From assembly GCA_003217735.2 (NCBI GenBank), contig CP031585.1, positions 2,777,501 through 2,841,500 on the forward strand: DNA of 64,000 nt. Reading direction: 5' to 3'. The stretch is from Marinibacterium anthonyi. GTDB lineage: Bacteria > Pseudomonadota > Alphaproteobacteria > Rhodobacterales > Rhodobacteraceae. Of this stretch, positions 60,674 through 63,726 are shown one piece after another. Position 1 is the first letter of the stretch, and every line of letters begins with the position of its first letter. The notes below the pieces were generated by a model. That model had not been told where the DNA came from and made no database searches. It was given only the letters and a program-made list of their open reading frames with translations. The position numbers and the translations under genes are program-made.

Positions 60674-61594
60674 ATGCCCGACGACAGCAAGAAAGACCCC
60701 GCCCTCGACTGGCTCGAAGCCGAACTGGCCGACACGCTGGACGAGGATTTCGAGCTTGAGCTGTCGGAACCGGCCCTGTCGATGGAACTGCGCCGCCTCT
60801 ACCGCGAAGCGCATCCGCCCACGCTGGAACGCAAGGATTACTTCCAGCAGCTTCTGCGCCTGCAGTCGGAACTGATCAAGCTGCAGGACTGGGTGCAGAA
60901 TAGCGGCGAGAAGGTCGTCGTGATCTTCGAAGGCCGTGACAGCGCCGGAAAGGGCGGTGTCATAAAACGTATCACCCAGCGGCTGAATCCGCGTGTCTGC
61001 CGCGTGGTCGCCCTGCCCGCGCCCACCGACCGCGAGAAGACCCAGTGGTATTTCCAGCGTTACGTGCCGCACCTGCCGGCGGCGGGCGAAATCGTGCTGT
61101 TCGACAGGTCCTGGTACAACCGGTCGGGCGTCGAACGGGTGATGGGCTTTGCCACCGAAGACCAGGTCGAACAGTTCTTCGAGGACGTGCCGGAATTCGA
61201 ACGGATGCTGGTGCGGTCCGGGGTGCGGCTGGTGAAATACTGGTTCTCGATCACCGATGCCGAACAGCAGCTGCGGTTCCTGATGCGCATCCATGACCCG
61301 ATGAAACAATGGAAACTGTCGCCGATGGACCTGCAAAGCCGCGTGCGCTGGGAACACTACACCAAGGCCAAGGAAGACACCTTCGCGCGCACCAACATCC
61401 CCGAGGCGCCCTGGTACATCGTGCCCGCCAACGACAAGAAACGCGCGCGGCTGAACTGCATCGATCACCTGCTCGGCATGGTGCCCTACCAGCCGGTCGC
61501 GCACGAGGAGATCAGCCTCCCGGACCGGGTGCACAACGAACAATACGAGCGCGCCGTGTTGCCGCCCGAGCTGTACGTTCCATCGAAATATTGA
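60674..61594 (+). CDS. ppk2: polyphosphate kinase 2
   Basis: 306 residues, one-domain PPK2. Walker A GRDSAGKGG (87-95), lid DRSWYNRSGVER (144-155). Transfers phosphate between polyphosphate and NDPs. The long acidic N-terminus (EDFELELSE) is typical of class I. Fits with the Pho genes in function but not in position. Confidence 0.95.
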   Translation: MPDDSKKDPALDWLEAELADTLDEDFELELSEPALSMELRRLYREAHPPTLERKDYFQQLLRLQSELIKLQDWVQNSGEKVVVIFEGRDSAGKGGVIKRITQRLNPRVCRVVALPAPTDREKTQWYFQRYVPHLPAAGEIVLFDRSWYNRSGVERVMGFATEDQVEQFFEDVPEFERMLVRSGVRLVKYWFSITDAEQQLRFLMRIHDPMKQWKLSPMDLQSRVRWEHYTKAKEDTFARTNIPEAPWYIVPANDKKRARLNCIDHLLGMVPYQPVAHEEISLPDRVHNEQYERAVLPPELYVPSKY

Positions 61595-61710
61595 CCCTGC
61601 CTGCGGCTGCGGTGCACGTCGGGGGACATCCCGGCGCTGCCTGCCGCCCGGCGCTCTCCATCCTGTGATGCGGCAATGTCTCGACAGGCCCGCGCGGCTC
61701 CCGTAGGGCC

Positions 61711-61740
61711 AAAAAAAAACGCCGGCACGAAGCCGGCGTT
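61711..61740 (-). terminator. intrinsic terminator on the - strand
   Basis: 9-bp stem AACGCCGGC/GCCGGCGTT (61732-61740 with 61718-61726), loop TTCGT, then a run of nine T on the - strand. No protein gene is transcribed into it from that side. Confidence 0.85.
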
Positions 61741-61787
61741 CAGTTATTGAGGCAGGTTTCATACAGGCAAGAAACCTATCGAGCAGT
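61711..61787 (-). ncRNA. candidate small RNA, about 77 nt
   Basis: Promoter at 61822-61794 and terminator at 61740-61711 frame a transcript starting near 61787 (A). It has a 5' hairpin AGGTTTC-N10-GAAACCT (61777-61754) and the terminator hairpin, with a single-stranded linker between. The 299-bp gap between ppk2 and the peptide-binding protein has no ORF of coding quality. Not recognised as a known RNA family. Confidence 0.6.
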
Positions 61788-61793
61788 GCCTTT

Positions 61794-61822
61794 GTTATAA
61801 GCAATTCTCGGCTCGCATCCAA
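61794..61822 (-). promoter_or_regulatory. sigma-70-type promoter of the small RNA
   Basis: On the - strand TTGGAT (61822-61817), exactly 17 bp, TATAAC (61799-61794; five of six to TATAAT). It is the best consensus promoter I saw in the window. Confidence 0.65.
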
Positions 61823-61893
61823 GCTAAAAGTTTGAAAATGCGTAAATCCGGGCCTACGCTCGGCGCGCAATAAAATAAGGGCAGGACAGGTTT

Positions 61894-63726
61894 ATGGGCA
61901 AAACAAGACATAAAATTTTCGCAGGAACTCCCGCATTTGTGGCGCTCGCACTGGCTCTTGCCACCGCCGCGCCCAGTTTCGGAGAATCGTCCCATGGCAT
62001 AGCTATGTACGGTGATCCCGCCCTCCCACCTGATTTTGTGTCCCTCCCCTATGCCAACCCCGACGCCCCCAAGGGCGGAACCGTGGTTTTCGGCAATACC
62101 GGAGGTTTCGATTCCCTTAATCCCTTCATCGAGAAGGGCACCGTCCCCTGGCAGCACAGCTTCTGGTCCTACGAGTCCCTGATGGGCAGATCCTACGATG
62201 AACCGTTTACCTTGTATGGGCTTCTGGCCGAATCGGTGACCACTCCGGATGACAGATCCTGGGTTGAATTCACCCTGCGCCCCGAAGCCAGATTCTCGGA
62301 CGGCACGCCGGTGACCGTCGAGGACGTGATGTGGTCCTACGAGACGCTGGGCACCGAAGGGCACCAGCGCTACCGGTCGTTCTGGGCCCAGGTCGACAAG
62401 ATGGAACAGACCGGCCCGCGCTCGATCCGCTTCACCTTCAAGTCCGACAACCGCGAACTGGCGCTGATCGCCGGGATGCGTCCGATCCTGCAAAAGGCCC
62501 AATATGAGGGCCAGAACGGGAGCAAGGATTTCACCGCCTCGGGGCTGGACACCGTGCCGATCGGCACCGGCCCCTACGTGGTCACCGATTTCGAAGCCGG
62601 CCGGTCCGTTACCTACACCCGCAACCCCGACTACTGGGGCAAGGACCTGCCGTTCCGGCGCGGCACCAACAACTTCGACACGATGCGGCTGGAATTCTTC
62701 GGCGACGGCGTCGCGCTCTTCGAAGCGTTCAAGGCCGGCGACATCTCGGCCGTGCGCGAATTCAACGCCGAGGCCTGGTCGCGCGACTACGATTTCCCCG
62801 CCGTCCAGCGCGGGGATGTCGTCCTGTCCGAGATCCCCGACCAGAAGCCCACCGGCATGACCGGGCTGGTGATGAACACCCGCAAGCCGTTCTTTTCCGA
62901 CTGGCGGGTGCGCGATGCGATGATCCATGCCTTCAACTTCGAATTCATCAACGAGGCCATCACCGGCGGCGCGCAAAGCCGCATCCAGTCCTATTTCGCC
63001 AATTCCGATCTGGGCATGCAGGCCGGCCCCGCCACCGGCCGCGTCAAGGACTTCCTGGACGCCTATGGCGACGCCCTGCCCGACGGCGCGCTGGACGGCT
63101 ATGCCCTGCCGGTGTCCGACGGGACCGAACGGAACCGCAAGAACATCCGCGTCGCCATCAAGCAGCTGCAGGATGCCGGCTATACGGTCGAAGACGGCCA
63201 TCTGACCGGCCCCGACGGCCCGGTGACCTTCGACATCCTGTTGCAGCAATCCGACAAGGAAACCCGCACCGCCGTCGACATGTTCTTGCCCGCGCTGGAA
63301 CGGCTGGGCATCCCGGTGACCGTCACCGTGGTGGACAGCGCCCAGTATACTCAGCGGATGCTGGATTTCGACTTCGACATGACCTCGTTCCGGCGCGCCC
63401 TGTCGCTGTCGCCCGGCAATGAACAGAAACTGTACTGGGGCTCGGACGGGCGCGACACGCCGGGGTCGCGCAATGCCATGGGCGTGGCCAGCCCGGCGGT
63501 CGACGGGTTGATCGACACCATGCTCAGCGTGACCGAGTCCCAGGATTTCACCGCCGCCACCCGGGCCCTTGATCGTGTGCTGACTGCTGAAAGATTGGTC
63601 ATTCCGTTCTGGACTTACGATGTCGGTAGAATTGCACACGTCAGAAACATGCATTTCCCTGCGAAATTGCCCATTTACGGGGACGGACCGGAATTTATGC
63701 CGCAAATGTGGTGGTACGAACCCTAA
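61894..63726 (+). CDS. peptide-type ABC transporter substrate-binding protein
   Basis: 610 residues, SBP family 5, YejA-like. Signal peptide about 1-30 ending in PSFG. GGFDSLNPF, YESLMGRSYDEPFTLYGLLAES and GTGPYVV are family marks. No permease follows inside the window; the next gene is a regulator. Transport of peptides or other small ligands. Confidence 0.92.
   Translation: MGKTRHKIFAGTPAFVALALALATAAPSFGESSHGIAMYGDPALPPDFVSLPYANPDAPKGGTVVFGNTGGFDSLNPFIEKGTVPWQHSFWSYESLMGRSYDEPFTLYGLLAESVTTPDDRSWVEFTLRPEARFSDGTPVTVEDVMWSYETLGTEGHQRYRSFWAQVDKMEQTGPRSIRFTFKSDNRELALIAGMRPILQKAQYEGQNGSKDFTASGLDTVPIGTGPYVVTDFEAGRSVTYTRNPDYWGKDLPFRRGTNNFDTMRLEFFGDGVALFEAFKAGDISAVREFNAEAWSRDYDFPAVQRGDVVLSEIPDQKPTGMTGLVMNTRKPFFSDWRVRDAMIHAFNFEFINEAITGGAQSRIQSYFANSDLGMQAGPATGRVKDFLDAYGDALPDGALDGYALPVSDGTERNRKNIRVAIKQLQDAGYTVEDGHLTGPDGPVTFDILLQQSDKETRTAVDMFLPALERLGIPVTVTVVDSAQYTQRMLDFDFDMTSFRRALSLSPGNEQKLYWGSDGRDTPGSRNAMGVASPAVDGLIDTMLSVTESQDFTAATRALDRVLTAERLVIPFWTYDVGRIAHVRNMHFPAKLPIYGDGPEFMPQMWWYEP

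Follow-up and report, generated by a model that had tools for sequence, protein, structure and literature searches.

A small RNA gene conserved across the Rhodobacteraceae, very probably that of StsR, beside a transporter gene of Marinibacterium anthonyi

Results

A minus-strand RNA gene between PPK2 and OBP

Within the window, the 64,000-nucleotide stretch of Marinibacterium anthonyi DNA analysed here, plus-strand genes for PPK2 and an extracellular solute-binding protein of family 5 (OBP) enclose a gap in which we find no convincing minus-strand protein gene, the long minus-strand open reading frames being antisense to PPK2 and OBP. The minus strand of this gap carries the elements of a compact RNA gene (Table 1). 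Direct reading returns all that the first-pass annotation had described there, from −35 and −10 elements and a start A to one internal hairpin, a 9-bp terminator stem and T9; a spacer of 17 nt separates TTGGAT from TATAAC, and the predicted +1 is either the A at 61787 or the C at 61786. The fold of the RNA beats those of shuffled sequences (z −4.76), and BLASTN finds a single full-length copy of the gene in its own genome. A motif scan finds 6 terminator-like sites where shuffled sequences give 5.0, which is near chance, and the promoter of the RNA is absent from the output of a sigma-70 scan; since motif scans alone are insufficient, we accept the gene as real because of its conservation.

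Table 1. Features of the RNA gene and its surroundings (window coordinates)
Feature	Position	Strand	Basis or remark
Small RNA gene, probable StsR ortholog, about 75-77 nt	61711..61787	−	Conservation, covariance model
−35 TTGGAT	61822-61817	−	Direct reading
−35 element CTTGGA, RpoH register (predicted)	61818..61823	−	139-locus alignment
−10 element TATAAC	61794..61799	−	Direct reading; 139-locus alignment
5' segment CTGCTCG	61780..61786	−	Complement of CGAGCAG in the dcw/mraZ leader
Internal hairpin, 7 bp and 10-nt loop	61754..61777	−	Fold, alignment
Hairpin arms AGGTTTC / GAAACCT	61777-61771 / 61760-61754	−	Direct reading
Loop and 3' arm GCCTGTATGAAACCTGC	61752..61768	−	Complement of leader element (G/T)CAGG(T/C)TTCATACAGGC in relatives
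Linker CCTCAATAACT	61752-61742	−	Nearly invariant
Intrinsic terminator, covarying 9-bp stem and T run	61711..61740	−	
Terminator stem arms	61740-61732 / 61726-61718	−	
T9	61719-61711	−	Two T's lie within the terminator stem
PPK2	60674-61594	+	Pfam
Extracellular solute-binding protein family 5 (OBP)	61894..63726	+	Pfam PF00496; divergent neighbour, outside the RNA gene
Predicted sigma-70 promoter of OBP (TTGAAA 61832-61837, 17 nt, TACGCT 61855-61860)	61832..61860	+	

Conservation and covariation

A BLASTN query of 61700-61840 against one Rhodobacteraceae genome per genus, the own genome included, matches 193 of 198 genomes, among them 172 of the 174 that are of good quality. A covariance model trained on 45 loci matches all 196 of 196 genomes (88 genera); these are partly the BLASTN genomes and, like them, are all Rhodobacteraceae, so that the range within the order lies outside this count. 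We aligned 139 loci: 130 of the 193 BLASTN matches plus 11 from named genomes, from which two sequence duplicates (L191 and L195) were removed; L115 was omitted because it is the same place as L163. The 130 came from the better matches listed, the weakest being absent, and the alignment therefore leans to good matches. Across it, 36 of the 39 columns from 61787 to 61749 are identical in every locus, the exceptions being 61787 (138/139), 61780 (138/139) and 61779 (137/139). Measured from the start A through the last T of the run, the RNA is 73–78 nt long, and 75–77 nt in 131 of the 139 loci.

In a class-wide sample of 289 genomes, searched with stricter filters that may lose weak matches, no genome outside the family gave a recognisable copy of the RNA. 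Four listed family members score at least 104 bits there and 16 'same class' genomes at most 33.8 bits; the four 'same class' loci that we inspected have terminator-like stems without GCCTGTATG. One genome of the collection (L325, G652) holds the RNA twice, the second copy lying with a short-chain dehydrogenase and an OBP that differs (64% identity); this may be assembly contamination or a second locus.

The terminator changes in a paired manner. Over the 139 loci, pair 61734/61724 is C-G in 62, G-C in 56, A-T in 16 and T-A in 2, and pair 61737/61721 is G-C in 124 and C-G in 15. In the 45 rows of the covariance model, chosen for diversity of the 3' part, a choice that favours variable pairs, four terminator pairs are changed on both sides (equalled in 12 of 500 shuffles); double-changed cells number 35 where shuffles have 10.6, and the score is 0.161 against 0.061. 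Further pair types in the same rows are no better than in shuffles, 153 of 500 of which did as well. The internal hairpin is invariant across loci, so covariation neither supports nor refutes it; the paired changes that the first-pass annotation had proposed to seek in both stems are thus present in the terminator, whereas the hairpin is uninformative in this respect.

That annotation had also made its proposal depend on the stems and promoter being kept in close relatives, and the 139-locus alignment shows that they are. Family-wide conservation and terminator covariation together support its central proposal, an independent RNA, about 77 nt long, that has a promoter and a terminator to itself and whose transcription is predicted. 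The RNA gene is strikingly conserved and of an ordinary class, and its annotation is new for this genome.

An RpoH-like promoter

The promoter elements read in the first pass are present, but their class had gone unrecognised: they are predicted to be RpoH-like rather than housekeeping. The TT of the −35 element and the TAT of the −10 element are invariant, and the G of TTG is found in 132 of the 139 loci. The final T of a sigma-70 −10 box is found in just one locus of 139, and we reject a sigma-70 reading on this ground. RpoHI and RpoHII promoters of Rhodobacter sphaeroides are reported to carry TTG at −36..−34 and A−12, with RpoHI marked by C−37 and T−9 and RpoHII by C−14 and T−13 (PMC3441632); the TTG and TAT are also given in PMC10673084. 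Numbered from +1 = 61786, a predicted start that fits best, T−13 and A−12 occur in 139 of 139 loci and TTG at −36..−34 in 132. The same numbering places the RpoHI marks C−37 and T−9 in 128 and 12 of the 139 loci, respectively, and the RpoHII marks T−13 and C−14 in 139 and 14; the signatures are mixed and mark no clear preference for RpoHI or RpoHII.

Complementarity to the mraZ/dcw leader

A 16-nt complement of the RNA's loop and 3' hairpin arm recurs in the mraZ/dcw leader, the source of the small RNA UpsM. Among 20 mraZ genomes that we picked, CAGG[T/C]TTCATACAGGC is exact in 17 leaders, differs by one base in two (L232 and L233) and has decayed in one (L248, the window's own genome), and CGAGCAG lies downstream in all 20. 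After trimming around the known element, these leaders give duplex energies with a mean z of −5.0 relative to shuffles; for L245, the lowest-energy duplex lies elsewhere in the leader. Genome-wide, 189 of 197 genomes carry the 16-mer, 101 of them at two sites, 88 at one and none at more than two; its reversed control has no match in the 197. Where checked, one of the sites is the RNA gene itself. We inspected 20 second sites of our choosing, exact by that choice: CGAGCAG follows 47–55 nt on in all 20, and an MraZ frame follows 18 of them. Four genomes (G017, G029, G059 and G102) have a BLASTN match and no exact 16-mer, which means that their RNA differs there. In Cereibacter johrii, a close relative of R. 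sphaeroides, a search permitting up to one mismatch finds the RNA gene and, on two contigs, the mraZ leader, with no further match. The first-pass suggestion of a trans-acting regulator is supported by this complementarity, seen across the family, with the dcw/mraZ leader as the predicted target.

Published work places the start of UpsM 268 nt before mraZ, with a length of 206 nt and an RNase E product of 130 nt, and already describes the long mraZ leader with its terminator as family-conserved (PMC5089854). These sizes put the cut at −192 relative to mraZ, a position accurate to several bases only, as it takes an assumed start codon and a relative's genome. In C. johrii, −192 falls within a U-rich stretch between the two pairing sites at −215..−199 and −162..−156.

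Identity of the RNA

These features point, with high confidence, to the StsR gene of M. anthonyi. The PufL of C. johrii is identical to the R. sphaeroides bait in a bait search, and the RNA is present in all 12 genomes comprising C. johrii and the 11 others that this search reached; the first 41 nt of the C. johrii RNA (L118) equal those of the window. StsR of R. sphaeroides (formerly RSs0827) is described as a 72-nt orphan RNA under RpoHI/RpoHII control, Hfq-associated, strongly induced in stationary phase and induced under stress, and named for its binding to the small RNA UpsM, which is made from the dcw 5' leader (PMC8307010); RSs0827 is also covered in PMC3688512 and PMC3413700. Its reported effect is slower cell division. 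The window RNA shares with StsR its size class, its standing as an orphan gene and its own RpoH-like promoter, and its relatives share complementarity to UpsM and the dcw leader. UpsM (the dcw 5' leader RNA, RSs0682) is itself a different RNA, made from the mraZ leader, and is the predicted partner here.

The StsR assignment rests on the C. johrii locus, taken as a stand-in for that of R. sphaeroides, and on promoter, size and target. This leaves some room for a family-specific, RpoH-dependent small RNA other than StsR but with a similar target. Such a reading could draw on the published length of 72 nt, against the 75–77 nt predicted for most loci, and on rpoE, a published StsR target reported to pair just after its start codon, for which the C. 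johrii duplex does not stand out, 106 of 500 shuffles doing as well or better. We nevertheless consider it improbable, since promoter class, size class and target all fit StsR and the 16-mer at up to one mismatch in C. johrii is confined to this gene and the mraZ leader. The window's own genus differs from the StsR system in that its dcw target has decayed, as set out below.

A limited literature search returned no published statement of family-wide StsR conservation, and a search for the context of RSs0827 through neighbouring gene numbers returned nothing useful. A survey of Paracoccus denitrificans reports family-conserved small RNAs (PMC5107571).

The neighbouring transporter gene and other readings

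The gene neighbourhood is itself well kept. A divergent OBP gene accompanies the RNA in 136 of 141 loci. Downstream of the RNA, 122 of 141 have a short-chain dehydrogenase on the same strand (SDR, by Pfam; presumably 3-hydroxybutyrate dehydrogenase-like). Both counts include the two duplicates. In the window, PPK2 occupies the usual place of the SDR, an arrangement also seen in the genus relatives L323 and L324. The block conserved upstream of the RNA is likely to be the housekeeping promoter of the divergent OBP, as its predicted −35 TTGAAA is found in 98 and its −10 TANNNT in 124 of the 139 loci; a reading of this block as the RNA's own control was set aside, the predicted OBP promoter explaining part of it instead.

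The constancy of OBP as divergent neighbour would suit a local regulator of the transporter gene, as the first-pass annotation had envisaged, yet this expectation is not supported and keeps very little probability. The predicted promoters of the RNA and OBP diverge, so their transcripts should not overlap. Part of the shared conservation is accounted for by the predicted OBP promoter. When the RNA is paired with 200 nt on the OBP side in 35 loci (every fourth of the 139), duplex energies equal those of shuffles (mean z −0.1, one locus below −3), against the mean of −5.0 for the dcw leaders in the same test.

A very short coding gene (ATG AAA CCT GCC TCA ATA ACT ...) could be read from an ATG at 61762, which lies within the conserved block. 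At most loci it would comprise 7 codons followed by TAA (T at 61741 in 104/139). It lacks a preceding Shine-Dalgarno-like sequence and runs into a hairpin arm that never changes and a terminator whose variation follows its stem, and we reject it as extremely unlikely. That the promoter and terminator motifs arose by chance and no RNA exists might be argued from motif counts near shuffled expectation; conservation in 193 of 198 genomes and covariation refute this at the sequence level, leaving it a negligible probability.

Comparison with Rfam offers no competing name. A scan of the window has nothing at gathering score, and three alphaproteobacterial RNAs, SorX (RF02784; 24.6 bits, gathering 46.6), BjrC1505 (RF02356; 31.1 bits, gathering 50) and suhB/mmgR (RF00519; 20.0 bits, gathering 41), all fall below it and were rejected as relatives. 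Their likeness to the window RNA lies in a hairpin followed by a terminator.

A decayed dcw site in the window's genus

Within the genus of M. anthonyi, the StsR site of the mraZ leader has decayed (L248 / L319, L320, L321). In all three genus genomes examined the leader reads GTAGGCAA...ATAC(A/G)GGC in place of the copy of the hairpin arm, with CGAGCAG kept; the leader of the window's own genome retains just the loop-binding CATACAGGC and CGAGCAG, and its pairing falls to z −1.87 against the mean of −5.0 over the 20 leaders. The first 39 nt of the RNA are unchanged in all three genus genomes. Because the dcw site has decayed while the RNA has not changed, other targets may be holding the RNA.

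We looked for such targets with the 3' part of the RNA. A scan with TTGAGGCAGGTTTC allowing up to one mismatch gives 172 matches in 61 genomes; about 61 of these are the RNA gene. The reversed control gives 34, and the excess may reflect base composition. The 40 listed sites that we inspected lie mostly inside open frames, with a single recurring gene pair (L329 and L362). On the minus strand of L352 (G032), a 19-nt complement of the RNA, GAGGCAGGTTTCATACAGG, lies just ahead of a motB-like gene, with 7 nt between its end and the start of that gene. No comparable site precedes four plasmid-borne motB genes of the Rhodobacterales, where the best is 8 nt, and the motB-like site is a single-genome lead.

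Discussion

In R. sphaeroides, binding of StsR to UpsM and the dcw leader is reported to lead to RNase E cleavage and less dcw mRNA (PMC11354728, PMC8625941). By extension from that organism, heat, oxidative stress or stationary phase would activate RpoHI/RpoHII and hence transcription of the RNA. The leader's AUACAGGC would make first contact with the exposed loop GCCUGUAU of the RNA, whereupon AGGUUUC of the leader, which copies the 5' arm of the RNA's hairpin, would displace that arm. The RNA's 5' end, CUGCUCG, would then clamp CGAGCAG about 50 nt further on, and the U-rich stretch containing the RNase E site would lie between the two clamps. Cleavage of the leader by RNase E and slower growth would follow, again as extrapolated from R. 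sphaeroides. The proposed pairing would cover most of the 39 invariant nucleotides, with the linker after the hairpin unaccounted for; CCTCAATAACT may be an Hfq segment or a segment for a second target.

Partial loss of the dcw target in the window's genus is the most interesting part of these observations. Either a shorter pairing suffices in this genus or other targets keep the RNA unchanged; dcw control there is probably weaker, or the RNA probably serves other targets. A bolder reading holds that StsR of this genus has become uncoupled from dcw and is frozen by unknown targets, and that a loop toehold with strand exchange operates across the family; we offer this whole as a tentative possibility, more likely to fail than to hold. 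If true, it would mean that a loop-toehold and strand-exchange design, in which the leader mimics the RNA's own hairpin arm, has been kept across the family.

What had been an unnamed gap becomes the site of a predicted stress RNA, found throughout the family, for which a candidate target is defined. Annotation by Rfam alone would leave the gene unmarked, as nothing reaches gathering score, and the alignment and covariance model would make family-wide annotation of the RNA possible. With its two parts flanking the published UpsM cut, the leader site provides a pairing model that is directly testable, and the genus with the decayed dcw site offers a natural experiment for finding the other targets of this RNA.
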